The translations under genes and the position numbers were made by a program. Positions 923 to 24,931 of a stretch of DNA of 64,000 nt are shown here, piece by piece. Source of the DNA: Bacteroidota bacterium (lineage in GTDB: Bacteria; Bacteroidota; Bacteroidia; Chitinophagales; Chitinophagaceae); assembly GCA_947452905.1 (NCBI GenBank), contig CANGEP010000001.1, positions 434,001 to 498,000 on the forward strand, given 5' to 3'. Position 1 is the first letter of the stretch. Each line of letters begins with the position of its first letter. The notes below the pieces were generated by a model. The model did not search any database. It worked only from the letters and a program-made list of their open reading frames with translations, and had not been told where the DNA came from.

Positions 923-936
923 ATATTTTTTATTTT

Positions 937-1695: not shown

Positions 1696-1700
1696 AATTT

Positions 1701-3119: not shown

Positions 3120-3126
3120 CTTAATT

Positions 3127-4764
3127 TTATAGACTCACCCCACGCTTCCATGGAATAAAATCATCTTGATTTAATAATACTGCTTTAGGGGTGATCTCTC
3201 CACTTGCAGCTTTTATACAATAGTGTAATATTTCTTCTCCCATTTGTTCAATTGTCTTCTCTCCCTCAATGACAGGTCCGGTATCAATATCAATGATATC
3301 GGCCATTCTTTTTGCAAGGGCCGTATTACTTGCCACTTTGATAGTTGGACAAACTGGATTACCTGTAGGTGTACCTAATCCGGTAGTAAATAAAATTAAG
3401 GTAGCTCCAGAAGCAGCTTTACCTGTGGTAGCTTCCACATCATTACCTGGGGTACACACAAGGTTCAAACCTGCTTTTAATGCGGGTTCAGTATAATCTA
3501 ATACATCCACAATAGGCGCGTTCCCACCTTTTTTTGCGGCACCAGCCGATTTTATGGCATCAGTAATTAAACCATCTTTAATATTTCCTGGGGAGGGATT
3601 CATATGAAATCCAGATCCTACTTTTAATGCAGCATCATTGTAAGAAGTCATCAGTTGAATAAATTTTTGTGCCGCCAAAGGATCGATGGTTCTATTAATT
3701 AATTCTTGCTCCACACCACAAAGCTCTGGGAACTCTGCTAACAATATTTGCCCCCCCAACGCCACCACTAAATCGGCGCAATAACCCACGGCTGGATTTG
3801 CCGAAATCCCACTAAAGCCATCACTCCCGCCACATTTAACTCCAATACATAATTTACTGAGCGGCGCAGGCGCTCTTTTTGATTTATTGGCTTCTACCAA
3901 TCCTTTAAAAGTGGATTGAATGGCATCTGCAATTAATTCTGGCTCACTTTTAGATTGTTGTTGCTCAAAAATGTATAAGGGCTTATTAAAATTTGGATTT
4001 CTATCTTTAATATCTTTTTCGAAATCTGATAATTGTAAGTTTTGACAGCCTAAACTTAACACTGTAATTCCAGCTACATTCGGATGATCGGCATAAGCAG
4101 CTAATAATTTACTTAACACTGCGGCATCTTGTCTTATACCTCCACACCCCCCTTGATGATTTAAAAATTTAATACCATCTATATTTTCAAATACTCGATC
4201 TTTTTTTGTGGTAGCAGTTAAATTAATAGGAATAGAAATATCTTTCCCTTCTTTATATGCATTTAATAATTGTTTCGTGTATTGTTTATACTGATTAGAA
4301 ACCTCATACCCTAATTCATTATGTAAAGCTTCTTTGATAACATCTAAATTTCGATTTTCACAAAAAACTGTGGGCACAAATAACCAATAGTTAGCAGTAC
4401 CCACTCTACCATCAGCACGATGATACCCGTTAAATGTTTGATCCTGAAACTTAGTTATATCAGGGGCTTGCCATGTATAATCAAAAGGCTTAAATACAAA
4501 AGGTTGCGCTGCATGGTGTAAATTTTCGGTACTCATTCTGGCACCAGCAACTACATCCAAGGTTAATTTTCCCACGAGTACCCCGTACATAAAAATGGAA
4601 TCCCCTTTTTTAAAATCGGTAGGGTAAATTTTATGTTTAGCCGAAATATCTTCTTGAACAGTTACCTCCTGTCCATCAATTGACACTATAGTACCTTTTG
4701 AGATATTTTGCAAAGCCACCCACACATTATCTTTAGGATTTATTTTTAAAACGTTTTTTTTCAT
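3127..4764 (-). CDS. uxaA: Altronate dehydratase (SAF domain plus catalytic domain)
   Basis: N-terminal SAF-like region followed by UxaA catalytic motifs (YHRADGRVGTANYW, KCGGSDGFSGISANPAVG); ATGA overlap with uxaB. Confidence 0.93.
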   Translation of the reverse strand: MKKNVLKINPKDNVWVALQNISKGTIVSIDGQEVTVQEDISAKHKIYPTDFKKGDSIFMYGVLVGKLTLDVVAGARMSTENLHHAAQPFVFKPFDYTWQAPDITKFQDQTFNGYHRADGRVGTANYWLFVPTVFCENRNLDVIKEALHNELGYEVSNQYKQYTKQLLNAYKEGKDISIPINLTATTKKDRVFENIDGIKFLNHQGGCGGIRQDAAVLSKLLAAYADHPNVAGITVLSLGCQNLQLSDFEKDIKDRNPNFNKPLYIFEQQQSKSEPELIADAIQSTFKGLVEANKSKRAPAPLSKLCIGVKCGGSDGFSGISANPAVGYCADLVVALGGQILLAEFPELCGVEQELINRTIDPLAAQKFIQLMTSYNDAALKVGSGFHMNPSPGNIKDGLITDAIKSAGAAKKGGNAPIVDVLDYTEPALKAGLNLVCTPGNDVEATTGKAASGATLILFTTGLGTPTGNPVCPTIKVASNTALAKRMADIIDIDTGPVIEGEKTIEQMGEEILHYCIKAASGEITPKAVLLNQDDFIPWKRGVSL

Positions 4765-6116
4765 ATTCCTAAGATTGTTTTAATGCCTACTGTATTAATT
4801 TTTTCTTTCCATTGTTCTACTTTTTCTACAAAAGCTACTTGACTACAATATTCAGTAGTGTTGATATTTTTACCCTGTTCTTTTTCCATGTATAAAGCAA
4901 AGGCGGCAAAGCCTAAACTCATTTTATCGGCAGGCGATTGATGGATAGTAAAATATTTTTCCATGAGAAACTGATTTCTCATTTTCATTTTTTCTTCAAA
5001 ATTCATAGCAATACTTACCCATTTGTGTTCAATAAATGGATTGGCAAAACGCTCTAAAACACTTTTCCCAAATTGCACCGCATCGTTGGTTGAAATATCA
5101 TCCCCCACAACACAAGGGGCAATCTCTTCGATAGCTAATTGAGTGATGAAACCTTTAAAACCTTCGTTATTCATTGCCTGAATAACAGTTTCAAATCCTG
5201 CTAAAATTGCCACCGCACAACTAAAAGTATGCGTGCCATTTAAAAGTCTTAATTTTAATTCACGGAATTTTACAATAGACGGTGCTACCACCACTCTTTC
5301 GTCGGTAGTCGCAAATGAAATTTTTTGAATCGTGGATGTTTTTTGTGATTCTATAGCCCATAAAGCAAAGGGCTCACTACTAATTAACAATTGATCCTCA
5401 TAACCCAAAGTATCTTTTAACTCTTCCATTTCTTTTTCACTCAACTTGCCTGGCACAATTCGATCCACCAAAGTATTACAAAAATCATTGGCGTCGGATA
5501 TCCATTGAATAAAGGATGCTGGTAAAGCATGATGTTTTGCCAAACTAATAATTATGTCTACCAAAACATTCGCATTATTAGGAACTAACTCGGTAGGCAA
5601 AATTACCCATCCTTTATTTTTGTCTCCATTAAAATGTTGCCATCTAGCATGTAATAAAGCCAATAATTTTGCAGGAAAAGTATTAGGTGCCTCCGGGCCT
5701 AAGGGATCATTTACATCTAATATTAAACCAGCTTCGGTAGTATTTGAAATAATCACCTCAATATTTTCACTAACTGCCAAGTTTAATAAAATATTCCAAT
5801 CTTTTTTCGCTTCTACCACTCTACTAATGGAACTATTCACAAAAGAATTGTTCACAAGCTCCCCTTTATACACGCCTCTTATACAATGAGTAAATAAATT
5901 GTCTTGTGAAGTAAAATCGGAAACACCCCCCTGTGAAGTTGATTTAACAACTACCACTTTACCATTAAACACACCCTGCTGGTTTGCATGATGAATAAAA
6001 AAATCAGGCAAGCCTCTTAATAAAACGCCTGTTCCAAATTGCAATACTTTTTCTGGCAAATCCTTGATTTGACCATGACTATTTATCCATTCCTTATTTA
6101 ATATTGGCCTACTCAT
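4761..6116 (-). CDS. uxaB: Tagaturonate reductase (mannitol dehydrogenase superfamily)
   Basis: VLQFGTGVLLRGLPDFFIHHAN...VVVVKSTSQGG Rossmann start and overall similarity to UxaB; operon context. Confidence 0.92.
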   Translation of the reverse strand: MSRPILNKEWINSHGQIKDLPEKVLQFGTGVLLRGLPDFFIHHANQQGVFNGKVVVVKSTSQGGVSDFTSQDNLFTHCIRGVYKGELVNNSFVNSSISRVVEAKKDWNILLNLAVSENIEVIISNTTEAGLILDVNDPLGPEAPNTFPAKLLALLHARWQHFNGDKNKGWVILPTELVPNNANVLVDIIISLAKHHALPASFIQWISDANDFCNTLVDRIVPGKLSEKEMEELKDTLGYEDQLLISSEPFALWAIESQKTSTIQKISFATTDERVVVAPSIVKFRELKLRLLNGTHTFSCAVAILAGFETVIQAMNNEGFKGFITQLAIEEIAPCVVGDDISTNDAVQFGKSVLERFANPFIEHKWVSIAMNFEEKMKMRNQFLMEKYFTIHQSPADKMSLGFAAFALYMEKEQGKNINTTEYCSQVAFVEKVEQWKEKINTVGIKTILGI

Positions 6117-6145: not shown

Positions 6146-9100
6146 TTATTTTATCAACCAATTAACCAGTTCCTGAGCAGCTTCAAAATTTTGATACTGC
6201 TTAGGCAATTTTCTTCCATCAATATATTCATTATACAACCAAGGGTCTCCTACTACTAATACCTTCCCCTTTCCTACCATAGCTTTAGCAATAACAGGCA
6301 CAGTACCATTGGTAGCCACCACAGTGGCAGGCGCTTTCACCGATAAAGCACTCACTTCTTTTAAATGTAATTTTAAGTTGGTCGAAAAAATACCATTGTC
6401 TTTTGAAGGATACACATTTCCCATTTCAAAGGCATTGCCTTTTACCATATTAACGGATTGATTGGTAGAACTTATTCCAAATTTTTCCAATAAAATATTC
6501 ATATGAACCAAATCGGTATTCGCACTATCATTGGTCATCACTAATAAAGTACCCCCTTGCTTTACCCAATCAACAATAACACTTGCCTCTTTTTCATTCA
6601 TATAATTGGGATGAGGATTGTCTTTTACATGATCAGCATCGATAATTAAATATACTTGACTCGTTTTTAGATTTTCAGCCGTGGGTGCTGTGTCTAAACT
6701 ACGAAGCAAGGCACCTTTATCTATAAACTGTTGTCCCCAACAAGCATTTCCACTATTACTTACTTCTTCCCAAGCATAATGCCAACGGTAGTCATTGCCT
6801 TTAGCATCTTTTTTTAATTCATTGTTAAAATAAGTATCAAGTGTGACAATAGGATGTGATTTAATAGTTGATTTTTCAAAAACAATGGCTTGATTGGCTG
6901 CTTGTAAAAGAGAACCAAATCCTTTAGGATCATTTAGTACAATGGGTTCTTTAAAATAATAATCTAAAGTCCCATCTCTGTATGGCGTTCCTCCTAAACC
7001 TGAAACAGAAACTGTATTGTTTAACTCAATAAAGCCATTATTGTCTTTGATATAGTTTTGAATAATCCCTGTATAGGCTTTTTGTGCATTGGATGTATAA
7101 GCGTTACTGATATATCCTTTTTTAACCGCCTTAAATAATACTCTTGAAAACATTGAAGAAGCAGAGGTTTCGTAATAATTTCTAGGATCACTTGGCGCAT
7201 CTAAAATATCAAACCACAATCCATTTTTTTGCTGCACTGCAACAATTGCTTTAGCATATCTATTTAAGATTTGAATTAAGGAATCTCTTCCTGGATCTTG
7301 TAAAGGATAATAATCTAATGCATCCACCAAAGCCATTCCATACCAACCCATGGCTCTACCCCAAATATGAGGCGATTTTCCGGTTTGTGGATCGGCCCAT
7401 TTTTGTTGTTTTTTTGCATCCCACGCATGAAATAATAATCCCGTTTTTTCGTCTTTAGTGTAAGTTTCGGCTAAAACAAATTGTCGAGTAATTTCTTTGT
7501 AAGCGCTACTATCATGAAATACACTAGCATATTGTGCATAAAAAGCAGCCCCCATGTATAACCCATCTAACCACATTTGATGAGGGTAAATATTTTTATG
7601 CCATAAGCCACCCAATTCATTGCGAGGTTGTAATTGCCATTGATGATACATCTGATCCAAGGCCTTTTTGTATTTTTCTTTACCCGTGACTTGATATAAA
7701 GTAAGAAGTAATTTACCATTGTTTAAATGGTCTATATTAAACTCGTCGGGTTTATAATCATACACCGAACCATCTTCTTTTACATAATAATCCATGCTAT
7801 GTTGGATATACTGAAAATATTGAGGATCCCCTGTAGCATACCATAATTCTTCAATCCCTTTTAAAATAACACCTTGGTCATAACTCCATCTAGCTCTTGC
7901 TCCTGGAGCTGGCTTTACCGCAAAGGAGTCGGGCCATAGACGCATGGCAGTGGCTGCCATCTTTTCCGCCATAGATGTGGCAGTAGTAGGCTTTAATTTT
8001 TTTAGTTGAACCGTATCAACATCTATATTAAGAGCATGTACCGTTTTTAACATAGGAGTAAGAGCAGATGTTAAAATGGTAGATTGCTGAATAGAAATAC
8101 TATCTGCTTCCTCAATTTGTATACCTTCTCTTGCACTTATAAAACTATTTTTGATAAGAATATTTTTTATGGGCATCTCAGGTATACCTCTTACAAATAA
8201 AGCCTTACTAGCACCATCACATGAAACATTACTTATTTCAAAATTTCTAAAAATAGGTGTAGCCTCAGTTACTGGAAACTTTTGTACAACAACCTTATCT
8301 TCTTCCCCATTTAATTTGATAGGATCAGTAGCAGCATAATACATATCAAAGAGTATCGCTTCTCCCACAATATCCTTCATATTAATATTGGTAGCATAAA
8401 TATTCTCAACCACACCTCCTCTGCCTCTTACCGTCTTAAAACGAAGCCCAATGTCTGTACCCACGAACGTACAACCATCGATGTAAATATTTTTAGCGCC
8501 CCCACTCATTTCACTACCTACCACAAAACCACCGTGTGCATGATAAACAGTACAGTTTTTTACAATAATGTTTTGAGTAGGCATACCTCTTTTTCGACCA
8601 TCTTCGTCTCTTCCGCTTTTAATAGTAATACCATCATCGCCCGTATCGAATACACAATCTTCTAAAATAGCATTAGAGCAGCTTTCTAAATCAATGGCAT
8701 CGGTATTGGTTCCCCACCATGGATTTTTTACGATCATTTTTTTAATTACAATATCCTTACTCATTAAAAAGTGAGTTGTCCATGCAGGTGAATTTTCAAA
8801 ACTTACCCCTTCAATTAACACTTTACTACATTGGTTTATGCGAAGCATGTTGGGACGTAAAAAATCTTTGATGCCCTCAAAATCTTGCAAAGTTTTTCCA
8901 GCGATTAATTTGCCAACATCTTTTTTTATAGAGGCTTCTGCGGCTGCTTTAGATGGATACCATGTTTTTTTATCCTCAGTTAAAGCACCACCAAAATTTT
9001 TCAAATGTCTTTTCCATTCCTCTTCCGATAATTTATCTTTCTTTAAGGGTCTCCAGTATAATCCATTTCCATTAAAAATACCTTCACCGGTTATAGCAAT

Positions 9101-9502
9101 ATTGGTTTGTTTTTCGGCAGAAATTGGGGATTGACATCTTGCAGCATCTACCCCTTCGAAAGAAGAAACCACTAATGGATATTGTGCAAAATCGGAACTA
9201 AAAACTACTAATGCACCAGCATTTAAGTGTAAGTTTACATTGGATAATAACACAATGGGGCCAGTAAGCCATTGGCCTTTAGGAATAACCACCACACCCC
9301 CGCCTTTGTCATGCATGATTTGGATGGCCTTGTTAATGGCGAAACTATTTAAATGATTCCCATTGGCACGAGCACCCGTAGAGACTATCGAAATGGTGTC
9401 TTTTCGGAAACTGGTTTTTTGGATTAAAAAATTGGGTGTTTTTAAAGCAAAACTGGGCAAGGTGAAGGCAAGGCTTAAGCCTAAATAAATGAATCGTTTC
9501 AT
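6146..9502 (-). CDS. Secreted fused GH28 polygalacturonase-like + GH105 unsaturated (rhamno)galacturonyl hydrolase + C-terminal GATase-like/DUF4350-type domain
   Basis: 1118 aa; signal peptide; GH28 motifs NTDAIDLE, DTGDDGITIKSG, HGGFVVGSEMSGG; GH105-like (alpha/alpha)6 motifs MWLDGLYMGAAFYAQYA, HIWGRAMGWYGMALVDALDYYP; C-terminal EASVIVDWVKQGGTLLVMTND. Confidence 0.85.
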   Translation of the reverse strand: MKRFIYLGLSLAFTLPSFALKTPNFLIQKTSFRKDTISIVSTGARANGNHLNSFAINKAIQIMHDKGGGVVVIPKGQWLTGPIVLLSNVNLHLNAGALVVFSSDFAQYPLVVSSFEGVDAARCQSPISAEKQTNIAITGEGIFNGNGLYWRPLKKDKLSEEEWKRHLKNFGGALTEDKKTWYPSKAAAEASIKKDVGKLIAGKTLQDFEGIKDFLRPNMLRINQCSKVLIEGVSFENSPAWTTHFLMSKDIVIKKMIVKNPWWGTNTDAIDLESCSNAILEDCVFDTGDDGITIKSGRDEDGRKRGMPTQNIIVKNCTVYHAHGGFVVGSEMSGGAKNIYIDGCTFVGTDIGLRFKTVRGRGGVVENIYATNINMKDIVGEAILFDMYYAATDPIKLNGEEDKVVVQKFPVTEATPIFRNFEISNVSCDGASKALFVRGIPEMPIKNILIKNSFISAREGIQIEEADSISIQQSTILTSALTPMLKTVHALNIDVDTVQLKKLKPTTATSMAEKMAATAMRLWPDSFAVKPAPGARARWSYDQGVILKGIEELWYATGDPQYFQYIQHSMDYYVKEDGSVYDYKPDEFNIDHLNNGKLLLTLYQVTGKEKYKKALDQMYHQWQLQPRNELGGLWHKNIYPHQMWLDGLYMGAAFYAQYASVFHDSSAYKEITRQFVLAETYTKDEKTGLLFHAWDAKKQQKWADPQTGKSPHIWGRAMGWYGMALVDALDYYPLQDPGRDSLIQILNRYAKAIVAVQQKNGLWFDILDAPSDPRNYYETSASSMFSRVLFKAVKKGYISNAYTSNAQKAYTGIIQNYIKDNNGFIELNNTVSVSGLGGTPYRDGTLDYYFKEPIVLNDPKGFGSLLQAANQAIVFEKSTIKSHPIVTLDTYFNNELKKDAKGNDYRWHYAWEEVSNSGNACWGQQFIDKGALLRSLDTAPTAENLKTSQVYLIIDADHVKDNPHPNYMNEKEASVIVDWVKQGGTLLVMTNDSANTDLVHMNILLEKFGISSTNQSVNMVKGNAFEMGNVYPSKDNGIFSTNLKLHLKEVSALSVKAPATVVATNGTVPVIAKAMVGKGKVLVVGDPWLYNEYIDGRKLPKQYQNFEAAQELVNWLIK

Positions 9503-9635: not shown

Positions 9636-10673
9636 ATGAGATTTGAAGCAATTACAATAAAAGATATAGCAAAGGCCTTAGGGCTTTCTACATCTACTGT
9701 AAGTAGGGCTTTGAGGGATAGCTATGAAATTAGCCCCGAAACAAAACAAAAGGTAATTGCCTATGCCAAGGAAAACAATTACCGCCCCAATCCAATTGCA
9801 TTAAGTTTAAAGGAGAAAAGAAGTAGCTCCATTGGGGTGATTGTGAGTGAGATTGCTAATAGCTTTTTTTCTCAGGCAATTAATGGTATTGAATCCATTG
9901 CCAACGAGAAAGGTTATAATGTAATTATTGCACAAAGTAAAGAGGAATTGGAAAGAGAGGATTCTGCCTTACAATATTTGGCGTCAAGAAGTGTGGATGG
10001 AATATTATTATCGGTATCAAGCAGAACCTCTAATTTTGATCATATTAAAAAATTGTATGACAGAGGGATGCCCATGGTGAGTTTTGATTGCTTGGTAGAT
10101 TTTGAGGGTATTCACAAAGTAATGGTGGACAATATAAAAGCAGCCTATGAAGGCACCGAGCATTTAATAAATAAAGGCTTTAAAAATATTGCTTGTATCG
10201 CGAGTTCTTCTTTTTTATCTATTACCACCGAAAGAGTGAAAGGTTATACGGCCGCTTTGCATAAGTATAACCAACCTATTCAAACCAATAATATTGAATA
10301 TATCCCGCATGGCGGACTTATCCAGGAAGAAATTTATGAGGCCATGGACAGACTCATGAATCAAAAAGAAAAACCAGATGCAATTTTAGCTTGTTCGGAT
10401 CGTATTACCACTAATGTGATGCGCTATTGTCAAAATAAAAAAATAAATATCCCCAAACAATTGGGTTTAATTGGCTTTAGCAATTTAGACTTAACCGATT
10501 TACTAACACCCTCCCTTTCCGTGGTTCGACAACCTGCTTATGAAATGGGTCGTGCCGCAGCAGATTTACTCATAAAAATGCTTGAAAGCAAAAGAGCGAT
10601 TACTGAATTTGAAAATGTAGTAATCCCCTCAACACTTATAGAAAGGGATTCTTCGATGCAAATAAAATTGTAA
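9636..10673 (+). CDS. LacI-family transcriptional regulator (probable local pectin/uronate regulator)
   Basis: N-terminal HTH TIKDIAKALGLSTSTVSRALRDSYEISPETKQKV plus periplasmic-binding-like effector domain; divergent from the pectin operon. Confidence 0.95.
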   Translation: MRFEAITIKDIAKALGLSTSTVSRALRDSYEISPETKQKVIAYAKENNYRPNPIALSLKEKRSSSIGVIVSEIANSFFSQAINGIESIANEKGYNVIIAQSKEELEREDSALQYLASRSVDGILLSVSSRTSNFDHIKKLYDRGMPMVSFDCLVDFEGIHKVMVDNIKAAYEGTEHLINKGFKNIACIASSSFLSITTERVKGYTAALHKYNQPIQTNNIEYIPHGGLIQEEIYEAMDRLMNQKEKPDAILACSDRITTNVMRYCQNKKINIPKQLGLIGFSNLDLTDLLTPSLSVVRQPAYEMGRAAADLLIKMLESKRAITEFENVVIPSTLIERDSSMQIKL

Positions 10674-10682
10674 ATATTAATT

Positions 10683-11114
10683 TTAGGAAGGATGTACGGC
10701 TTGTCTTGCCAACATTTTCCAGGTTCCATTTTCTTTCTTAAAAACCAACAAAACTTTTAATTTAACGGTTCCAGGTTTATTATTATCATTGGTAACTGCC
10801 TCCAATGAATGTCTTACAATAGCGGTATTACCATACACAGCAATGGTTTGATCTTTAATATCAATACTCACAAAATCGGATTTACCCGAAGCAATTTTTT
10901 CGACAAACTCTGCTTTCCCTTCCACATGTCCTCCTGAATGGCCATAACTTAAATTATCAGAAACGGATTCACTTAAAGCGTTTCTATCGCCACTAATCAT
11001 AGCTGCAATTAATTTATTTACCGCTTGCTCCACTTTGGCTTGTTTTTTATTTTGTGCATTTGAAAATAAAAAACAGCCTAAAAAAACAAACAAAACTAAA
11101 AGGGTCTTTTTCAT
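10683..11114 (-). CDS. Secreted NTF2/SnoaL-like (DUF4440-type) protein
   Basis: Signal peptide followed by a SnoaL-like fold pattern (AMISGDRNALSESVSDNLSYGHSGGHVEGKAEFVEKI...VLLVFKKENGTWKMLARQAVHPS). Confidence 0.75.
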   Translation of the reverse strand: MKKTLLVLFVFLGCFLFSNAQNKKQAKVEQAVNKLIAAMISGDRNALSESVSDNLSYGHSGGHVEGKAEFVEKIASGKSDFVSIDIKDQTIAVYGNTAIVRHSLEAVTNDNNKPGTVKLKVLLVFKKENGTWKMLARQAVHPS

Positions 11115-11253: not shown

Positions 11254-12978
11254 ATGGAAAACTATAATTTCAACATCAATGCCAATCATACTTATGATGC
11301 TATTGTAATAGGGTCTGGTATCACTGGAGGTTGGGCAGCCAAAGAATTGTGTGAGAAAGGATTAAAAACCTTAGTGCTTGAAAAAGGACGAATGGTAGAA
11401 CATGTTAAAGATTATATCACCGCCAATAAAGATACTTGGGACGAGGAATTTAGAGGACAAATTTCTTACCAAGAAATGGAACAACAACATGTACAAGCAA
11501 GAAGTGGCTACATAAATGCTTTCTCGAAACACTTCTTTGCCAATGACGCCGAAAATCCTTATCAAGAAATTCAACGTTTTGATTGGTTCAGAGGTAACCA
11601 AGTGGGCGGCAGATCCATTACTTGGGGGAGACATACTTATAGATGGTCTGATTTAGATTTTGAAGCCAATGCAAAAGAAGGTATCGCCATTGATTGGCCT
11701 ATTCGTTATAAAGACATTGCCCCTTGGTATAGTTATGTAGAAAAATTTATTGGTGTAGCTGGCGAAAAAAGAAATTTAGCCCATTTACCCGATGGCGATT
11801 TTTTAAAGCCCCTAGAAATGAATTGTATCGAAAAACATTTTGCAGCTAAAGTGCAAAACTCATTTGATGCAAGACCTGTTATGATGGGAAGAGTCGCTCA
11901 TTTAACAGAAACCAAACCATGGCATACTGCATTAGGTAGAGGTACCTGCCAAAATAGAAATAGATGTGGTAGAGGGTGTCCCTTTGGTGCTTATTTTAGT
12001 AGTAATGCGGCCACTTTGCCCGCTGCTAATAAAACAGGGAATTTAACCTTAAGACCATTTTCCATTGTACATTCTATTATTCTTGATAAAAATACCAACA
12101 AAGCAACAGGAGTTCGTGTAATAGATGCCGAAACAAATGCAATAACAGAATTTTATGCTAAAATAATTTTTCTGTGTGCCTCCACTTTAGCAAGTACACA
12201 ATTATTATTACACTCTAGTAACGAAAGATACCCCCATGGATTGGGAAATGAATCGGGCGAACTAGGTCATAACCTAATGGATCATCATCATAATGTAGGT
12301 GCCATGGGAAGCTTTGAGGGCTTACAAGATTCTTATTATAAAGGCAGAAAACCTGCAGGCTTGTTTATACCCAAATATGTAAACTTAAACGAGAAAACAA
12401 AACAAGCCAACTTTAAAAGAGGATTCAATTATCAAGCAGGTGATGCAGTTCGTGCAAGTTGGAATAGAGGTGTAAATGAAGTGGGTGTAGGAGGTAATTT
12501 CAAAGATGCCTTAATGAAACCTGGTGAATGGAGTATGAGCATGATGGCATTTGGAGAAGTATTACCCTATCATGAAAATAAAGTAACGCTGCACCCTACC
12601 CTAAAAGATAAATGGGGCATTCCTCAATTAGTGATAGACGCAGGCTTTAAAGATAATGAGTGGAATATGCGCAAAAAAATGAAAGAGGATGCAGGTGAGA
12701 TGTTTGAAAAAGCAGGATTTAAAAATATTAAAACATTTGACAATCCCACCGCATTAGGAAATTCAATACACGAAATGGGCACGGCTCGTATGGGTAAGGA
12801 TCCTAAAACTTCGGTATTAAACGAGCATAACCAAATACATGGCATACCCAATGTATTTGTTACAGATGGTTCCTGTATGGTGTCATCTAATTCTGTAAAC
12901 CCAAGTTTAACTTATATGGCACTTACTGCAAGAGCAGTTGACTTTGCTGTAAGTGAATTAAAAAAGAATAATTTATAA
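11254..12978 (+). CDS. GMC-family FAD oxidoreductase, large subunit of a gluconate/glucoside-dehydrogenase-type complex
   Basis: FAD motif AIVIGSGITGGWAAKEL; C-terminal GMC motif HEMGTARMG...SNSVNPSLTYMALTARA; C-x5-C-x3-C at 11947-11979. Confidence 0.9.
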   Translation: MENYNFNINANHTYDAIVIGSGITGGWAAKELCEKGLKTLVLEKGRMVEHVKDYITANKDTWDEEFRGQISYQEMEQQHVQARSGYINAFSKHFFANDAENPYQEIQRFDWFRGNQVGGRSITWGRHTYRWSDLDFEANAKEGIAIDWPIRYKDIAPWYSYVEKFIGVAGEKRNLAHLPDGDFLKPLEMNCIEKHFAAKVQNSFDARPVMMGRVAHLTETKPWHTALGRGTCQNRNRCGRGCPFGAYFSSNAATLPAANKTGNLTLRPFSIVHSIILDKNTNKATGVRVIDAETNAITEFYAKIIFLCASTLASTQLLLHSSNERYPHGLGNESGELGHNLMDHHHNVGAMGSFEGLQDSYYKGRKPAGLFIPKYVNLNEKTKQANFKRGFNYQAGDAVRASWNRGVNEVGVGGNFKDALMKPGEWSMSMMAFGEVLPYHENKVTLHPTLKDKWGIPQLVIDAGFKDNEWNMRKKMKEDAGEMFEKAGFKNIKTFDNPTALGNSIHEMGTARMGKDPKTSVLNEHNQIHGIPNVFVTDGSCMVSSNSVNPSLTYMALTARAVDFAVSELKKNNL

Positions 12979-12981
12979 ACC

Positions 12982-13575
12982 ATGAACAGAAGAGAATATA
13001 TAACGCAAACTACAAAATACTTAGGCTATACATTGGTAACAGGAACCGTATTAGAATTATTAGCTTCATGCGAAAACAATGCACAAAATTGGAAGCCGGT
13101 ATTTTTTACACAAGAGGAAGCCATTACTTTATCTGCCATTACGGATACTATTTGTCCTAAAACATCTAGCCCCGGCGCTAATGAATTAGGAGTGCCTTCA
13201 TTTATTGATCAGCTGGTAAAAAAATTATTAAAACAAGAGGATCAAGCATTTTTTAAAAAAGGAATTCAAGAAATAAATGAAACTGCTCAACAAGAATTTA
13301 AAAAACAATTTTCCGAACTTCCTATCAACCAAAAAGAAAGTATCTTAATAGACTTGGATAAAAAATCGGCGCCTACTGCTATGACTATGTGGGGCAAGCC
13401 CATGGAAGAACATCCATCCCCATTAAGTTTTTACAGAAAAATAAAAAGCTTAACCCTCATGGCTTTTTTTACCAGTGAAAAAATTGGAAAAGAATTTCTT
13501 ACCTACGACCCCATTCCAGGCGAATTTAAAGGATGTATTCCTTATACTCAACAAACCAACTGGACAGAAATTTAA
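12982..13575 (+). CDS. Gluconate 2-dehydrogenase subunit 3 family protein, Tat-lipoprotein-like
   Basis: MNRREYITQT...LELLASC: twin-Arg signal plus lipobox; FFTQEEAITLSAITDTICPKTSSPGANELGVPSFIDQLV typical of the family; 3 bp after the GMC gene. Confidence 0.88.
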   Translation: MNRREYITQTTKYLGYTLVTGTVLELLASCENNAQNWKPVFFTQEEAITLSAITDTICPKTSSPGANELGVPSFIDQLVKKLLKQEDQAFFKKGIQEINETAQQEFKKQFSELPINQKESILIDLDKKSAPTAMTMWGKPMEEHPSPLSFYRKIKSLTLMAFFTSEKIGKEFLTYDPIPGEFKGCIPYTQQTNWTEI

Positions 13576-14996
13576 AAGTCGTATTGCTTTCTTCTGGGTC
13601 TTGACAACATAGCGGTTGCCTCGGCATCATTATTTTTAAACACTTCTTTTTCTGGATCCCAATAAATTTTTCTTTTTACTTTCATCGCAATATGATGCAG
13701 CAAGCAAGCACTACAAGAACGATGCCCTACTTCGATAGGCGTAGAAGGTTGTGTTCTTGTTTTAACAGATTCTAACCAATTCACATGCTGCTCACCACTT
13801 TCTAATAAATGAACTTCATTAGGGCCAATAACAGATTGTAATATTTTGGGATTGCTTGCATCAATGGGTTTAACACCATTACTATCACTCACTGGATCTG
13901 TTTCGGTAACTCTATAATTTCCTCTGGTTACCCAAATCCAACCTTCGGAACCAATAAACTTTACACCATTAGGAAGTTCATTAGAAACAGTCATATGAAC
14001 ACCGTTCGCATATAGTGCTTCGGTTCTAAAAATTCCATGCACATCCCAAAGACCCGTATAATTTGGATCGTCAGTTGGAAAATTGGCATGTCCCCAAATT
14101 TCGATTGGGCCTGTATATTCAGTATCCATACCCCAATGTGCTATATCAATATGGTGTGCACCCCATCCTGTTATCATGCCTGCTCCAAATTGTTCACAGC
14201 GTAACCAACCAGGTCTGGAGGCGACACCTTTTAATGAACTATCTAAGGAATGAACACGATCTTCTGTATAATAAGTTTCGGGGGTAGCACCTAACCAAGC
14301 ATCAAAATTTAAATTAGCAGGTACTGGCATTTGTATTTTACTTCCGCCTCCTGGATCACCAGGCAAACCCACTTCGATATGGGTAATTTTTCCGATTCTT
14401 CCATTACGTACTAATTCGCATGCTTTTTTAAATTGAGGCCATGGATCAGAACCTCTTTGTTGAGAGCCCATTTGAAAAATGCGTCCAGTTCTTTTTACTG
14501 CATCACTTAAAATTCTACCTTCTTCGATTGTTAAAGAAGCGGGTTTTTGAAGATACACATCTTTACCTGCGTTTACTGCATGAACACCCACAATTGCATG
14601 ATGATGATCGGGCAAACTAATATGTACCGCATCAATATCTTTGTTTAATAATAGCTCTTTATAATCGTTGTAAACTTTAATATCCCAATCGCCTTTTAAA
14701 CCACCATTAAAGGCGCCTTGTGATTTATAATTGGCTCTAACAGCAGCAGGACCAGCATTGGCTCTATCTTTATCCAAATCACATACTGCCATAATTCTCG
14801 CCCCAGCATATTTGGCAACACCTGTCATATCATGAGAGGTAGAAATTCGTCCACAACCAATAGAGGCTACATTAATTAAATTACTGGGCGCATATTTCCC
14901 AAAAACTCTTGCTGGTACAATGGTAGGAAAATTAACTGCAATCGCAGTACCCAATGTTGCCTTCACCGATGATTGTATAAAATTTCTACGTTTCAT
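13572..14996 (-). CDS. Gfo/Idh/MocA-family oxidoreductase with Tat signal
   Basis: MKRRNFIQSSVKATLGTAIAVNF Tat-type leader; NVASIGCGRIS nucleotide-binding motif; KDVYLQKPASLTIEEGR catalytic Lys region. Confidence 0.9.
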   Translation of the reverse strand: MKRRNFIQSSVKATLGTAIAVNFPTIVPARVFGKYAPSNLINVASIGCGRISTSHDMTGVAKYAGARIMAVCDLDKDRANAGPAAVRANYKSQGAFNGGLKGDWDIKVYNDYKELLLNKDIDAVHISLPDHHHAIVGVHAVNAGKDVYLQKPASLTIEEGRILSDAVKRTGRIFQMGSQQRGSDPWPQFKKACELVRNGRIGKITHIEVGLPGDPGGGSKIQMPVPANLNFDAWLGATPETYYTEDRVHSLDSSLKGVASRPGWLRCEQFGAGMITGWGAHHIDIAHWGMDTEYTGPIEIWGHANFPTDDPNYTGLWDVHGIFRTEALYANGVHMTVSNELPNGVKFIGSEGWIWVTRGNYRVTETDPVSDSNGVKPIDASNPKILQSVIGPNEVHLLESGEQHVNWLESVKTRTQPSTPIEVGHRSCSACLLHHIAMKVKRKIYWDPEKEVFKNNDAEATAMLSRPRRKQYDF

Positions 14997-15065: not shown

Positions 15066-16631
15066 TTATCGTAAAATGCTAAATGCATCCACTGTCATAT
15101 AACCAGCATCATTCGTAGTTGTTTCACTACTACAATAATACCCCATTTTAGCACCTACCCACACACCCGCTTCCGCCTGAAATGGTCTTGGACAGGTTAT
15201 ATAATGTATGCCATCTATACTATACGAAAAATAAGCAATGGCATTTGGCTCCATCACTAAACGTATATAAATTTTACTAGGGGCAGAATCATTTATCAAA
15301 TTTGTTACTAATTCCTGTGCTCCTTTATCTGCCTTTATACACTCTATATAATTTAATTGCAACCCTTTCTCCGTATTTTTTAGCTCTATTCCTGCATATG
15401 ATTTTCCAAATACAATAAATCCTGCGCGTTCCCCTTTTTGCAAACTTGTAAAATTGATGCTTGTTTTTAGTTCAAATTTTTCGGCTGGAATTTTTGCTAA
15501 ATAGAGGGCAGGGAAATTCCATAAATTTTTTACACTATCCTGCTTTACTACTGCATATTGCCTATAGGTATTTCCTAAAGCCATTCTCCACTGTGGTTGA
15601 AAATTCACATTCCACTGAAACTCCAATGCTGGATTATAGAGCGCACTGGCTTGTTTTAATAATTTTGTTTTAGGTATAGTATAGGAATCCACTGGCTCTC
15701 CCACTCCATCCCCATCTTTATCAAACCCTATCACAGGCCATTCGTTTTTCCAAATCATGGGTTGCAAATGAGTGATTCTTCCATAAGCCCCTTTGTCTTG
15801 AAAATGTATAAACCAATCTTCATTGGTATTGGTTTGAACCCAAGCCCCCTGATGTGGCCCATTTATTTTAGATGCCCCTTGCTCCATTACTTTTTTTCGT
15901 TCATAAGGGCCATAAATATTTTTAGACCTTAATACTATTTGCCATCCAGTACTTACCCCTCCTGCGGGTGCAAAAATATAATACCACCCATTACGCTTAT
16001 ATAGTTTAGGGCCTTCTACAGTGGGATCAATCCCATGACCATCATATATCAATTTGCCTTCGTCTATTATTTTAGTACCACTCACATTCATTTGCTTCAT
16101 GGCTAATACACTTTTAATACCCGCTCTACTACCTGCATAAGCATGTACTAAATAAACTTTGCCATCCTCATCCCATAAAGGACAAGGGTCAATTAATCCT
16201 TTTCCAGGAGACACTAACACTGGTGTAGACCATTTACCAAGTATATTTTTTGTCTTTACTACATAAATTCCCATCTCAGGGTCGGGATAATAAATATAAA
16301 ATTCGCCATTATGAAATCGAATACTGGGTGCCCAAACACCTGCACCATGATGCGGTTTTTGATAATATTCATAAGGTGATAATTTATCTAAAGCATAGCC
16401 TATTAATTGCCAATGCACTAAATCAGACGACTGCAAAATGGGCAAACCTGGTACAGAAGTAAAACTAGAAGCCACCATATAATACTGGTCTCCCACTCTT
16501 ATGGCATCAGGATCGGAATAATCTTCGTGTAAAATGGGGTTGTTATAGGTTTGCGCAAAACTTAAGCTTGAAAAATATATTTGTAGCGTAAAACAAAGTA
16601 AACTAAATATTATCTTTTTATTGGCTGCCAT
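15066..16631 (-). CDS. Secreted GH43-family glycoside hydrolase (beta-xylosidase/arabinofuranosidase-like) with C-terminal beta-sandwich
   Basis: YSDPDAIRVGDQYYMVASSFTSVPGLPILQSSDLVHWQLIG, GVWAPSIRFHNGEFYIYYPDPE, DPTVEGPKLYKRNGWYYI. Confidence 0.92.
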   Translation of the reverse strand: MAANKKIIFSLLCFTLQIYFSSLSFAQTYNNPILHEDYSDPDAIRVGDQYYMVASSFTSVPGLPILQSSDLVHWQLIGYALDKLSPYEYYQKPHHGAGVWAPSIRFHNGEFYIYYPDPEMGIYVVKTKNILGKWSTPVLVSPGKGLIDPCPLWDEDGKVYLVHAYAGSRAGIKSVLAMKQMNVSGTKIIDEGKLIYDGHGIDPTVEGPKLYKRNGWYYIFAPAGGVSTGWQIVLRSKNIYGPYERKKVMEQGASKINGPHQGAWVQTNTNEDWFIHFQDKGAYGRITHLQPMIWKNEWPVIGFDKDGDGVGEPVDSYTIPKTKLLKQASALYNPALEFQWNVNFQPQWRMALGNTYRQYAVVKQDSVKNLWNFPALYLAKIPAEKFELKTSINFTSLQKGERAGFIVFGKSYAGIELKNTEKGLQLNYIECIKADKGAQELVTNLINDSAPSKIYIRLVMEPNAIAYFSYSIDGIHYITCPRPFQAEAGVWVGAKMGYYCSSETTTNDAGYMTVDAFSILR

Positions 16632-17581
16632 GGGGCTAAAATTTTAGAAACTGTAAATATACTTGCTTGCTCTTCAGTTAATTGTTTGCTCCAACTTACT
16701 CTTTTGCTAGGATTTGCTCCAGGTCCTTCACTATTGTATTCACTATATCTAGCAGTGGCTTCATTGGCAGGATTTTTCCAATTATTCCATCCTTCTTCAA
16801 TAATATGTTTGTCTAAAAAACAATTTAAGTAAGTAACACTTGCAGTAGGGCTCCAAGGCCTTCCTAAAGATACTTTGTTTACAGAACTATCAGCGCTAAG
16901 CGTGCATTTATTAAATACAAAACCAAAAGGAATAATAGAATTGGTAGAAGCGGCCGTTACGTGTGAGTTTTTTTTGCTATGAATATGACAGTTATCAAAA
17001 TAAGCAGTGGCGGCACCAAAAATAAAATCGGTAGTGCCTTCGATATAACAATCTTTAAAATAATGTTTTACTCCATTGCCACTTAAAAATAATACATCCT
17101 GGAAGCCTAGCATTTTGCAATTATAAAATGAAGCTCTATTACCCTCTACTCTTAAAGCAACGGCTTGTCCAGCTGTAAATCCAGCTTGATTACTAAAACT
17201 TAAATTTTGTGCCTGAAAATCGTTCCCATAAATAAATACCGCAGCACAGTTCCATGTATTTAAAGTATCGCCATTGGCTTGTTTAATGCCAGAATGATTG
17301 TCATATTGAATGATGGTATTATTTTCATCTTCCCCAACTAATGTAATATTAGACTTGCTAGCATCTAAGGTTACTACTTCTTTATAAATACCCTTTTTAA
17401 TAAAAATACGTATTGGCTTTAAATTACCTGAAGGAATTAAATTTAATACTCCTTGTACGGAATGATAAGGAGTGGTATTGTCTTTTGCAACTACATAATC
17501 ATAACTAATATTATTTGTTTGAGCCATCACTTGACTGCAACAAAATAAAATAAATAAAAAATTAAATGCTAGTTTTTTCAT
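16610..17581 (-). CDS. Pectin methylesterase (CE8)
   Basis: Signal peptide; CE8 motifs GFQDVLFLSG, EGTTDFIFGAATAYFDNC, LGRPWSP. Confidence 0.95.
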   Translation of the reverse strand: MKKLAFNFLFILFCCSQVMAQTNNISYDYVVAKDNTTPYHSVQGVLNLIPSGNLKPIRIFIKKGIYKEVVTLDASKSNITLVGEDENNTIIQYDNHSGIKQANGDTLNTWNCAAVFIYGNDFQAQNLSFSNQAGFTAGQAVALRVEGNRASFYNCKMLGFQDVLFLSGNGVKHYFKDCYIEGTTDFIFGAATAYFDNCHIHSKKNSHVTAASTNSIIPFGFVFNKCTLSADSSVNKVSLGRPWSPTASVTYLNCFLDKHIIEEGWNNWKNPANEATARYSEYNSEGPGANPSKRVSWSKQLTEEQASIFTVSKILAPWQPIKR

Positions 17582-18330
17582 TACTTGGTTTTTGTTGTAA
17601 TGACATGGTCACTTAAATTAGTATGTAATGATTTTACTTCTTTTAAAACCAATTGTGCAATAAGCCTAGCCCCTAATTCATTAAAATGAGTGTTATCTAT
17701 TTTACCCTCTGGATAATTAGGATGTTCGCCCGGTTTTAACTGTAAAAATAATAAAGTAGAATTTTCTTGCCCAAATTGTTGATACAAAGCTCTACTCTTA
17801 GTATCCAAATCGATGAATAAAACATTTTCTTTTTTGGCAACTTCCTCCACCAAAGGACTATACTCTTTATGCGTTTCCTGTGCTTTCCCGAGGCTATCAA
17901 ACTTTCTGCGCGAAACAGGCGTTAATAAAATAGGAATGGCTTTAAGTGCTCTTGCTTCTTTTACGAATTTTGTTAAATTGGCTTTAAAATCTTCAGGGTT
18001 AGAATATCTGTCTTTTTTCTCAACAGACTCGTCATTGTGTCCAAATTGAATAAAAACATAATCCCCTTCTTGAGCACCATCAAGTACTTGTTGCCATAAA
18101 CCTTCACTTATAAAAGTTTTAGTGCTACGACCATTTTTGGCAAGGTTATTAACTTGCGTACTTGAATCCCAAAAATATACAAATGGCATGCCCCATCCAG
18201 TTTCTGGATAAGTATTGGTTTGTTTAATAGCAATAGTACTGTCTCCACATAACCAAATTTTCATTTTTGCGGGAGGAGTGGCAGCCACTAAAATAGTAGA
18301 TGCGAAAATTAACACTAGAATCTTTTTCAT
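17581..18330 (-). CDS. Rhamnogalacturonan acetylesterase-like SGNH esterase (CE12)
   Basis: Signal peptide; GDSTIA, FIQFGHNDES, DNTHFNELGARLIAQLV. Confidence 0.92.
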   Translation of the reverse strand: MKKILVLIFASTILVAATPPAKMKIWLCGDSTIAIKQTNTYPETGWGMPFVYFWDSSTQVNNLAKNGRSTKTFISEGLWQQVLDGAQEGDYVFIQFGHNDESVEKKDRYSNPEDFKANLTKFVKEARALKAIPILLTPVSRRKFDSLGKAQETHKEYSPLVEEVAKKENVLFIDLDTKSRALYQQFGQENSTLLFLQLKPGEHPNYPEGKIDNTHFNELGARLIAQLVLKEVKSLHTNLSDHVITTKTK

Positions 18331-18338
18331 TTTATAAA

Positions 18339-19718
18339 TTAAGGGGTAAGTTCATTTAAGTACATCTCAATATTAGTATATTGTTTTGAAAGTGAAAATT
18401 TAGTATCATCTGCTTCCTTTTTATTCAACCCCATTTTTATTTCCCAGCTATCTGGTATTCCATCTCCATCTGTATCTAATAAAGGTTCAGCAGTTTGTAA
18501 AAACGGCCACGCTTTAATGGTTTTGGCATATTCAGTACCATGCGCATATCCGCCTTGTACATCAATTATTTTACCTCTTTTGTAAACTACGTCTTGAATA
18601 ATTCTAGCATCTAAACTATCTCTTTTATAGGAAGCGCCTACATGTGTGAGTACCGAATAATAAGCAGCTTTTGCTTCTTGTATTTGAATTGCTAGAGTTG
18701 GGAAAGGTATAGTTGTTATAGCCTTAGATTTTTGTAATTCGGTAATTTTTTTATCAAATTCAATACCATTAATATTTTCTTTACTTACCCATTCATTGCC
18801 TTCCACAAAGTTACCTTTAACAAAGAATTCGCCTAAACCTCTTGTCTCATTTAAGGTAGGATTCACAATTCTTTTAGCTACTGATTCATGGGTAGATGGC
18901 CCTGGTCGATAATAATTATTAATCATATTATATTTTCCTGCCTCGCCTCCATACACGCTATTATGTTCCCAATTATAAATAACATTATTACTAAAATCAA
19001 CAAACTCTTCACTTGATCCTAATCTTGCCCCATTAAAACGAGGATTTCTACTCACACAATGGGCAAATAAATTGTGATGAGCGCTTAAATGAGCCCCTCC
19101 CCAAATACCGCCGTACCCATGTTTTTCAAAATCAGTATCGCCTTTTTCAAAATGATAGGAATAATTTAGGGGTTCTGCAATTAAATTCCATTGGAGCGTG
19201 GTGCTATCACCCCCATATATTGAAAACACTTCATCATTACTCCAACTCATACTACAATGGTCAATGACAATATTTTTATGTCGATTGCCCCCAAATGAAT
19301 CATCATCACCACTTAAATCAACCATTCCTTTATTCTGAAATTTATCTCCTAATCTAAATCGTAGAAAACGAATCACAATATTATCTCCTCCTAGTCCCAC
19401 CGATTGATCAGCCAAACATATGCCTTCTCCTGGTGCTGATTGTCCCGCTATAGTTACATCACCAGCAATAGTTAATTTAGTTTCTAAGTGTATGGTGCCT
19501 GTAATATCGAAAACAATGATTCTTGGTATTTTAAGAGTGGCAGCGGCTCTAAAACTTCCAGGTCCATCATCATTTAAATTAGTTACTTTAATAAGCTTAC
19601 CTCCTCTCCCTCCTTTTGTATATTTACCAAAGCCTTCGGCCGAAGGAAAAGCAAAGGTTTGTGCTTTAGCAAAACCTAGAGATAAAATGATTAATAAAAA
19701 TAAAAATGTTTTTTTCAT
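18339..19718 (-). CDS. Secreted pectate lyase (PL1-like) with C-terminal DxDGDGxPD Ca-binding motif
   Basis: AFPSAEGFGKYTKGGRGGKLIKVTNLNDDGPGSFRAA...DHCSMSWSNDEVFSIY; DTDGDGIPDSWE. Start moved to MKKTFLFLL at 19718 (track start 19733 lies beside a hairpin). Confidence 0.92.
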   Translation of the reverse strand: MKKTFLFLLIILSLGFAKAQTFAFPSAEGFGKYTKGGRGGKLIKVTNLNDDGPGSFRAAATLKIPRIIVFDITGTIHLETKLTIAGDVTIAGQSAPGEGICLADQSVGLGGDNIVIRFLRFRLGDKFQNKGMVDLSGDDDSFGGNRHKNIVIDHCSMSWSNDEVFSIYGGDSTTLQWNLIAEPLNYSYHFEKGDTDFEKHGYGGIWGGAHLSAHHNLFAHCVSRNPRFNGARLGSSEEFVDFSNNVIYNWEHNSVYGGEAGKYNMINNYYRPGPSTHESVAKRIVNPTLNETRGLGEFFVKGNFVEGNEWVSKENINGIEFDKKITELQKSKAITTIPFPTLAIQIQEAKAAYYSVLTHVGASYKRDSLDARIIQDVVYKRGKIIDVQGGYAHGTEYAKTIKAWPFLQTAEPLLDTDGDGIPDSWEIKMGLNKKEADDTKFSLSKQYTNIEMYLNELTP

Positions 19719-19730
19719 AAAATGTTTAAA

Positions 19731-19761
19731 CAAAAAAATAAGGCAGTAAAACTGCCTTATT
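19731..19761 (-). terminator. Intrinsic-terminator-like hairpin between susD and PL1 (possible attenuator)
   Basis: Minus strand: ATAAGGCAG-TTTTA-CTGCCTTAT followed by TTTTTTT (plus-strand arms 19738-19746 and 19752-19760). Confidence 0.8.
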
Positions 19762-19780: not shown

Positions 19781-21586
19781 CTAATATCCTGGATTTTGTT
19801 TCATATTAAAATTAGCATCTAATACAGGTTGAGGAATGGGAAGTAGTTCCGATTTTCCTGTAGTAAATCCAGTGGCAAAACGTGCTAATGCTACTGTATT
19901 AATAGTAGTACCCATCCAAACTATTTTTGTAGTACCAGTAGGTGCAGTGGTAGGTTCTTTAGTATAAAAAGAATTACTCCAAGCTGCTTTATCATCTGCC
20001 GTAGAGTTAGTTTTAAAATACATAGATTGAGGTAGATTAGCCCAAGTACCTGTTCTGTTAGACATAGCTAATAAAGTGGTTTTAGTATTTGCAATAGTGG
20101 TTGCCAATAAATTCCATCTTATTAAATCATATTTTCTTATACCTTCTCCACCTAATTCTAAAGAACGTTCTTTTACTAATGCAGTAAAGAATGATGATTT
20201 TGACAAACCAGCAGGTAAATCAACAGTAGCATCGGCCGTATTGATGGCTTTACCATAACCTCTTCTGCGCACTTGGTTAATGGCATTATAGGCAGCAGCA
20301 GTAGGGCCATTTAATTCATTCTCTGCTTCAGCAAACATTAATAAAACATCCGCATATCTAATAATTTGCCATTTTAAACTTAAGTATTGAACTGCGTCCG
20401 TCGGAGAAATGATAGGGTTTGTTAACCAATCTCTTCTATATTTTCCATCATTTATGGCAGTTATCGCTTGTCCAGCTTTGGTAGCACCGTCTGCATTCAC
20501 GTTATAAACAGCACAGGTAACATCTCTTCTTAAATCGGTAGAATCAAACGCGTAAAAATAGGAAGGCAATACGTTGATACTTTTATTACCATAAGAACCC
20601 ACAGTAGGTCCATTATAGTATCCTAATTTTGTATCAGCAACACCCGATCTTCCAGTAGCACTTGCCTGGAACATTAATTCCCCATCAGGATCAGCAACCG
20701 CATGCGCACAAACCTGATCTTTCCATAAAGCTTTAAAACTAGGGTTTAATGCATGTTGTCCAGAAGCAATAATTTCTTTTGTTTCATCTAATGCAATTTT
20801 ATAATAAGTTGGGGCGTCAGCACCTTGTGCCACCTGTCCATTTTTTCTTAAAGCATACCCTGCTCTATAAAAAGCAATTCTTGCTCTTAAAGCTTTAACT
20901 GTTCCTTTGGTAATTCGCTCATCTTCTTGATTGCCAATAGAAGCCAACTCTTTTCTCCAAGGCACTAAAGTTGCCGCTGTTTTTAAATCATTCAATAATA
21001 CTTCATATAAAGAATCGCGATCGGTGGCAGCAGGAAATTGTTTTGCACCTGCTTGATTTGAAGCGGATGTAAAATGTGCAGGTAAATCGCCCCAGTTTCT
21101 AATGGCTTCTAAATAAAATTGAGCTCTTAAAGTTAATGACTCACCATATAACCTTTGTAATTGCTTCTTTTGCTGATCAGTACCATTACTGTACATGTTC
21201 ATTTTAGGAATATTATCAATACAATTATTAGCAAATTCAATACCGGTAAAAATTTGATTAAATGGATTGGTAATTTGAGCATTCCCCGAAGTGGCACTAT
21301 AACGTGCTATATCACGTCTGTCATTATCCGCTGCACCTGTAGGCCCTTGCATCTCATCATTATCTACCGGATAATACAAACTTAATCGAATGCCATATCC
21401 AGCATCTCCTACTAAACGGCTATATACTGAAGCCACTGCTTTTGTAGCACTTGTTACATCACTAAAAACAACTTCAGTGCTTAATTCTGTGATAGGTTGT
21501 TGATCTAAGTACTTTTTACACCCAGTCATCACAGAAAGGGGAAGCAATAAAGCTAAAAAGTATTTATAAAAAGATTTATTTAACAT
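19781..21586 (-). CDS. SusD/RagB-family outer-membrane glycan-binding lipoprotein
   Basis: Lipobox SVMTGCKKYLDQQP; SusD-type pattern; C-terminal LLPIPQPVLDANFNMKQNPGY; next to susC. Confidence 0.96.
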   Translation of the reverse strand: MLNKSFYKYFLALLLPLSVMTGCKKYLDQQPITELSTEVVFSDVTSATKAVASVYSRLVGDAGYGIRLSLYYPVDNDEMQGPTGAADNDRRDIARYSATSGNAQITNPFNQIFTGIEFANNCIDNIPKMNMYSNGTDQQKKQLQRLYGESLTLRAQFYLEAIRNWGDLPAHFTSASNQAGAKQFPAATDRDSLYEVLLNDLKTAATLVPWRKELASIGNQEDERITKGTVKALRARIAFYRAGYALRKNGQVAQGADAPTYYKIALDETKEIIASGQHALNPSFKALWKDQVCAHAVADPDGELMFQASATGRSGVADTKLGYYNGPTVGSYGNKSINVLPSYFYAFDSTDLRRDVTCAVYNVNADGATKAGQAITAINDGKYRRDWLTNPIISPTDAVQYLSLKWQIIRYADVLLMFAEAENELNGPTAAAYNAINQVRRRGYGKAINTADATVDLPAGLSKSSFFTALVKERSLELGGEGIRKYDLIRWNLLATTIANTKTTLLAMSNRTGTWANLPQSMYFKTNSTADDKAAWSNSFYTKEPTTAPTGTTKIVWMGTTINTVALARFATGFTTGKSELLPIPQPVLDANFNMKQNPGY

Positions 21587-21614
21587 AACTATTATTTTAA
21601 AATATTGTTTTTAA

Positions 21615-24827: not shown

Positions 24828-24931
24828 ATAAGCATTTTGTTTAGCAATCAAGGCCAAAATGGCCGTTATTTTTGGACTTGCAAGTCTATTTATTTTAACT
24901 TAAATTTCACATTTAATAAAGTTCTTTATTT

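Follow-up and report, generated by a model that had tools for sequence, protein, structure and literature searches.

Results

We found that a GMC-family dehydrogenase gene and the Gluconate_2-dh3 gene that follows it in a Bacteroidota genome encode, to judge from their sequences, a LacA/LacC-type dehydrogenase of a known kind that is predicted to act outside the inner membrane. The new element is that it is consistently found with pectin genes across five related genomes, which suggests a redox step in pectin breakdown. Here LacA is taken to be the GMC protein and LacC the Gluconate_2-dh3 protein. The window analyzed is a stretch of 64,000 nucleotides of contig CANGEP010000001.1 (forward strand, 434,001 to 498,000) of a Bacteroidota bacterium, and all coordinates are window-based unless a locus is named. 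It contains the following features:

92..6116 (−), KduI, SDR (KduD-like), UxaC, altronate dehydratase and a mannitol-DH-family (UxaB-like) protein; intracellular uronate catabolism
6146..9502 (−), GH28-GH88/105 pectinase fusion (Pfam)
9636..10673 (+), LacI-type regulator, probable regulator of the locus (Pfam)
10683..11114 (−), DUF4440/SnoaL secreted protein, divergent neighbor, weak partner candidate (Pfam)
11254..12978 (+), GMC FAD dehydrogenase of 574 aa, catalytic (LacA-like) subunit without signal peptide (Pfam, solved relatives, Foldseek)
11947..11979 (+), CQNRNRCGRGC, predicted 3Fe-4S ligands C232, C238 and C242 (alignment to fructose dehydrogenase)
12982..13575 (+), Gluconate_2-dh3 small subunit of 197 aa with twin-Arg signal and lipobox Cys30 (Pfam PF13618, conserved residues)
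13572..14996 (−), Gfo/Idh/MocA oxidoreductase with Tat signal, probable locus partner (Pfam GFO_IDH_MocA and C2)
15066..19733 (−), GH43, pectinesterase, GDSL (CE12-like) esterase and pectate lyase (the lyase matches 9buj, E 1.3e-63)
19781..24857 (−), SusD/SusC pair of the pectin locus (SusC related by BLAST to the SusC of the orthologous loci; SusD putative, named from its position)

The positions of the two reading frames, their setting among pectin genes and the nearby Tat-type Gfo/Idh/MocA enzyme were all as the original prediction described them. The neighbor that it called a secreted NTF2-like protein belongs to DUF4440/SnoaL. The dehydrogenase pair lies on the strand opposite to most pectin genes of the window, and the Gfo/Idh/MocA gene is convergent to the small-subunit gene, overlapping it by 4 nt at the stop codon.

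The catalytic subunit and its cysteine motif

The large subunit matched Pfam GMC_oxred_C (78.4 bits) and GMC_oxred_N (50.1 bits), both above cut-off, and the residues of the FAD-binding GxGxxG (G20, G22, G25) and the C-terminal His (H506) were invariant across 25 aligned homologues. Since the FAD-binding motif (GSGITGG) starts as early as residue 20, too few residues precede it for a signal peptide, in agreement with the signal-less large subunit proposed originally. The C-x5-C-x3-C motif was located at residues 232 to 242, as claimed, and the idea that its spacing is that of 3Fe-4S ligands was borne out by alignment with solved 3Fe-4S enzymes, which supports a GMC protein of the 3Fe-4S type. 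It aligned without gaps on CCGNNNCMPIC of fructose dehydrogenase, with C232, C238 and C242 on the three ligand positions; the 3Fe-4S ligands of BcGDH, the glucose dehydrogenase of Burkholderia cepacia, are Cys212, Cys218 and Cys222 (PMC6719666). The motif is not a chance occurrence, since it was found in only one of 50 long ORFs of the window, its three cysteines were invariant in all 25 aligned homologues down to 32% identity, and it recurred in 85 of 89 collected GMC proteins. On this alignment the large subunit is predicted to carry a 3Fe-4S cluster.

The remaining four GMC proteins carry a variant with four cysteines. In a distant paralogue group (about 30–33% identity), the loop in question has C-x2-C-x2-C-x3-C instead, spaced as is typical for 4Fe-4S sites. 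Members were found in L011 (9371-11113; contig C10 of the same genome), L102, L112 and L114, and the C10 member has a Tat-signal Gluconate_2-dh3 gene as its partner and is surrounded by housekeeping genes.

The best solved relatives by sequence were fructose dehydrogenase (E 6e-36) and BcGDH (E 2.7e-29). An AlphaFold2 model of the large subunit (pLDDT 88.5, pTM 0.90) led Foldseek to the same two enzymes (8jej, E 7e-44; 8grj, E 1.4e-41), whose chains alone made up the nine top PDB fold matches (E 1.7e-38 or better), with pyranose oxidases next (E 5e-31). The large subunit of Gluconobacter fructose dehydrogenase (7w2j, 8jej) was thus the top match among solved proteins in both sequence and fold, although identity is 21% and the multi-heme cytochrome partner of that enzyme has no counterpart in the window. 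With the gamma-alpha complex of BcGDH (6a2u, 8grj; PMC6719666), the window pair shares the GMC fold, the C-x5-C-x3-C ligands, a signal-less catalytic subunit and a Tat-signal small subunit, whereas identity is about 21–22%, the inter-subunit disulfide Cys213 is absent (Q233 in the window protein) and no triheme cytochrome gene lies nearby.

The small subunit and predicted export

The small subunit scored 115.2 bits against Gluconate_2-dh3 (PF13618; cut-off 23.4). Its N-terminus reads MNRREYI, with LASC at residues 27–30, and the twin-Arg signal and lipobox noted earlier stood up to comparison: R3, R4 and C30 were invariant in 24 of 24 relatives, some of which depart from the strict lipobox pattern and retain just the Cys. 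The features of a Tat hitchhiker lipoprotein, namely a twin-Arg signal, a lipobox Cys, a genomic TatC and a signal-less partner, are therefore all present at the sequence level. The three invariant residues and the TatC gene of the source genome support Tat export of a lipoprotein-anchored pair.

Homology of the small subunit to the solved BcGDH hitchhiker (gamma) found no support, as there was no sequence match between them and the small-subunit model, of moderate confidence (pLDDT 78), had no match among PDB folds (best E 1.3). Because of this dissimilarity, the hitchhiking of the large subunit on the small one is a proposal drawn from the family to which the pair belongs.

A known family with several paralogues

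GMC homologues at E<1e-100 occurred in 102 of 150 genomes of the source's family, and LacABC has already been described (PMC9007349), so the kind of enzyme is not new. In Caulobacter crescentus and Pedobacter sp. GW460, membrane-bound LacABC-type enzymes oxidize glycosides in the periplasm, are needed for lactose, salicin and other glycosides, and are encoded near DUF1080 proteins (3-keto hydrolases) that have been proposed to act together with them (PMC9007349). The GMC and Gluconate_2-dh3 gene pair that marks this type is present in the window, which supports the original comparison with glycoside 3-dehydrogenases, and the large subunit is 54–60% identical to proteins many of which sit in 3-keto-disaccharide-hydrolase cassettes.

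The source genome (2.29 Mb, 18 contigs) encodes three Gluconate_2-dh3 and five GMC proteins. A locus on contig C6 (L009) is a canonical 3-keto cassette, in the order Tat-signal TIM barrel, GMC, small subunit, TIM barrel, Gfo, TIM barrel, small cytochrome c (L009, 5131-5517) and 3-keto-disaccharide hydrolase (PF06439). This paralogous layout resembles LacABC in gene types and arrangement. Similar cassettes recurred in many genomes of the source's family, and such arrangements were also found partly on plasmids of Catenovulum, Xanthomonas and Ketogulonicigenium. Further PF06439 genes are present in the source genome, one beginning about 1 kb beyond the window end.

Other arrangements were seen as well. 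Three loci of family genomes (L079, L098, L100) carry five to seven GMC catalytic genes in tandem and just one Gluconate_2-dh3 gene, which looks as though several catalytic subunits shared one subunit for export. On contig C11 of the source genome (L010, 8813-12223), two tandem GMC genes have SusC/SusD and GH30/GH3 genes on either side, and since no small-subunit gene accompanies them, the small subunit would be needed from another locus.

Linkage of the pair to pectin loci

A GTDB scan yielded four close relatives of the large subunit (76–86% identity), in L012 (G191 contig), L013, L014 and L020. Together with the window, all five pairs are housed in pectin/rhamnogalacturonan loci, so the synteny survey proposed with the original prediction found the pair retained in each of the related pectin loci. 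Common to the five are the GMC pair, a GH88/105 gene and SusC/D, while GH106, GH51, GH28, CE8 and CE12-type genes vary. By comparison, a pectin-type gene was within reach in 2 of the 43 other GMC loci with adequate flanks (Fisher p 1.2e-5, computed with the loci treated as independent, which overstates their independence because the five share ancestry). The SusC/D proteins of the four relatives are 61–88% alike, whereas the window SusC is about 30% identical to theirs, and the CAZyme and SusC/D content of the window differs from the type shared by the other four. The pair has thus been retained among pectin genes in loci of two distinct types.

In a tree of 89 GMC proteins, which the pectin set entered without the split L020 sequence, this set formed one clade (SH-aLRT 100). 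It was nested in a larger clade (15 rows) whose pairs come from several Bacteroidia families, apart from the source's own C6 and C11 paralogues, and the nearest relatives outside the pectin clade (60–66%) were not in pectin loci. Among 61 sampled genomes of the genus, two carry a close orthologue, one of them the source genome. The GMC pairs are intact in L012, L013 and L014; in L020 (10001-11724) two overlapping ORFs together make up the GMC orthologue, a split that probably reflects a frameshift or an assembly error.

None of the five pectin-clade pairs has a 3-keto hydrolase, TIM barrel or cytochrome c beside it, so the downstream steps of the canonical cassette cannot be seen at these loci. 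The linked cytochrome c and DUF1080 hydrolase of LacABC are missing there and present at the C6 paralogue; unlike LacABC, the pectin-locus copy sits with GH88/105, SusC/D and Gfo genes. A literature search that combined polysaccharide utilization, GMC and gluconate 2-dehydrogenase found no paper within the library it covered.

Neighboring genes and the candidate substrate class

Orthologues of the window Gfo/Idh/MocA gene (81–85%) lie beside the pair in L013, L014 and L020, so that a Tat-signal gene of this type is present in four of the five pectin loci. Its proposed role as a partner was strengthened by this distribution, and we regard it as a likely locus partner, though it also occurs without GMC. 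L013, L014 and L020 carry two further Gfo-type genes (PF16490 and GFO_C3); a PF16490 search of the source genome gave no match, with the control silent as well. In L127 (2733-12067; G159), SusC/SusD genes accompany GFO_C3, GFO_C2 and PF16490 Gfo-type genes with neither a GMC pair nor pectin enzymes, so the Gfo gene is not obligately tied to GMC. DUF4440, which had also been put forward as a partner, has an orthologue (75%) in L013 only; present in two of the five loci with the window included, it is a weak candidate and was rejected. Orthologues of the LacI regulator (80–81%) occur in the L012 and L013 loci, and a search for operators ahead of the GMC gene in the five loci found no shared palindrome.

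Relatives of the Gfo protein at about 60% identity adjoin genes for KduI, a KduD-like SDR, UxuA, mannonate oxidoreductase and a KDG-type kinase in L131, and a glucuronate isomerase gene in L132. In L064 (2420-3565), an unexpected exported relative of UxuA (mannonate dehydratase family) with a Tat-type signal directly follows a GMC/Gluconate_2-dh3 pair whose identity is 64%. Among solved proteins, the window Gfo is nearest to the dehydrogenases 8tdf and 8tdh, with a weaker match to the glucuronide-3-dehydrogenase 8tdi. These hints point to uronides as a possible substrate class. At 103 bits against a cut-off of 750, the window Gfo falls outside the BT_2158 glycoside 3-dehydrogenase family (NF058561). 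The BT2157-2159 system of gut bacteria, to which 8tdf, 8tdh and 8tdi belong, reportedly carries out Gfo/Idh/MocA-based 3-keto glycan breakdown (Nasseri 2024, Nature, cited in PMC12291463). It resembles the window in its exported sugar dehydrogenases and 3-keto chemistry, with the window Gfo as a distant relative, and differs in that its Gfo enzymes bind NAD whereas the window has a flavin/iron-sulfur enzyme.

A candidate electron acceptor

The statement that no cytochrome subunit lies nearby held for the window, where no ORF with CxxCH was found. The electron acceptor, left blank by the original prediction, can be filled in with a candidate, the small cytochrome c syntenic with the paralogous C6 locus. 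Of the seven Cytochrom_C matches in the source genome, one is inside this cassette, and in Rhizobium radiobacter glucoside 3-dehydrogenase passes its electrons to a mono-heme cytochrome c (PMC9915066). The C6-locus protein would be a natural candidate acceptor for the window enzyme too.

Discussion

Sequence features, family, fold class, synteny and phylogeny lead us to a reading to which we give an even chance: a LacA/LacC-type periplasmic dehydrogenase has been recruited to pectin use and oxidizes, at C3, pectin-derived oligosaccharides that contain uronic acid, readying the glycosidic bond for elimination or hydrolysis. The GMC subunit would fold in the cytoplasm with FAD and its 3Fe-4S cluster and bind the Gluconate_2-dh3 subunit, whose twin-Arg signal would carry it across the inner membrane, after which the lipobox Cys would anchor the pair. 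A ring hydroxyl of the oligosaccharide, most likely that at C3, would then be oxidized to give a 3-keto glycoside, and electrons would pass from FAD through the 3Fe-4S cluster to a small cytochrome c encoded elsewhere, for which the C6 neighbor is the best candidate. The adjoining Gfo/Idh/MocA enzyme probably acts on the same sugar class, so that the keto-activated bond would be cleaved or the sugar fed back into the uronate pathway.

Of the steps in this scheme, the substrate is the least secure, and the main weakness of the C3-oxidation reading is the absent 3-keto hydrolase beside the pectin-clade pairs. Also weighed against it were the kinship of the pectin loci, the out-of-clade relatives (60–66%) that are not pectin-linked, the Gfo gene without GMC and the small subunit without a PDB fold match. 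C3 specificity is not readable from the sequence, since the nearest solved relatives oxidize fructose (at C5, by fructose dehydrogenase) or glucose. The latter is oxidized by BcGDH at the first hydroxyl (PMC6719666).

Three other explanations were considered. The same exported 3Fe-4S dehydrogenase might oxidize a free sugar, whether at C1 or elsewhere, and yield an aldonolactone or keto sugar, in the service of respiration rather than glycoside cleavage. That the closest solved relatives, fructose and glucose dehydrogenases, act on free sugars speaks for this, as does the absent hydrolase, but identity to those enzymes is about 21%, against the 54–60% shared with proteins from 3-keto-disaccharide-hydrolase cassettes, and intracellular uronate use is already encoded beside the pair. 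We consider a free-sugar substrate rather unlikely, and the earlier suggestion of free galacturonate, arabinose or rhamnose found no support, given the uronate catabolism encoded in the locus. The pair could also be a LacAC glycoside 3-dehydrogenase of the ordinary sort, acting on plant glucosides or disaccharides, whose place among pectin genes is incidental and which has no role in pectin breakdown. Lactose, salicin and other glycosides are indeed substrates of family members (PMC9007349), the pair runs opposite to most pectin genes, and homologues outside the clade are mostly not pectin-linked. The pair is nevertheless kept with pectin genes in all five loci despite their differing CAZyme and SusC/D content, and the separate canonical C6 copy is available in the genome for that role, which makes an incidental setting unlikely. 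That the genes are inactive, the cluster unassembled and the locus a decaying remnant is very improbable: nothing direct favors it beyond the split L020 orthologue, probably an assembly error, whereas the ORFs are intact here and in L012, L013 and L014, and the FAD, Fe-S and catalytic-type residues are invariant across 25 homologues.

Returning to C3 oxidation of pectin-derived oligosaccharides, a broader proposal can be offered only tentatively, and we rate it as doubtful: pectin/rhamnogalacturonan degradation may have a redox branch in which a flavin/iron-sulfur dehydrogenase, with exported Gfo/Idh/MocA enzymes, activates uronic-acid-containing oligosaccharides by C3 oxidation and passes electrons to the respiratory chain, beside the known lyases and hydrolases. 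The conserved pectin setting merits biochemical study, and the pectin clade offers five loci, a small testable set, in which to look for substrates of a large enzyme family, most of whose members lack a known one. Should the linkage to pectin genes prove functional, some Bacteroidota would break down pectin/rhamnogalacturonan partly by glycoside oxidation, a route that lies outside the lyase/hydrolase scheme assumed by annotation and that would require a respiratory electron acceptor.
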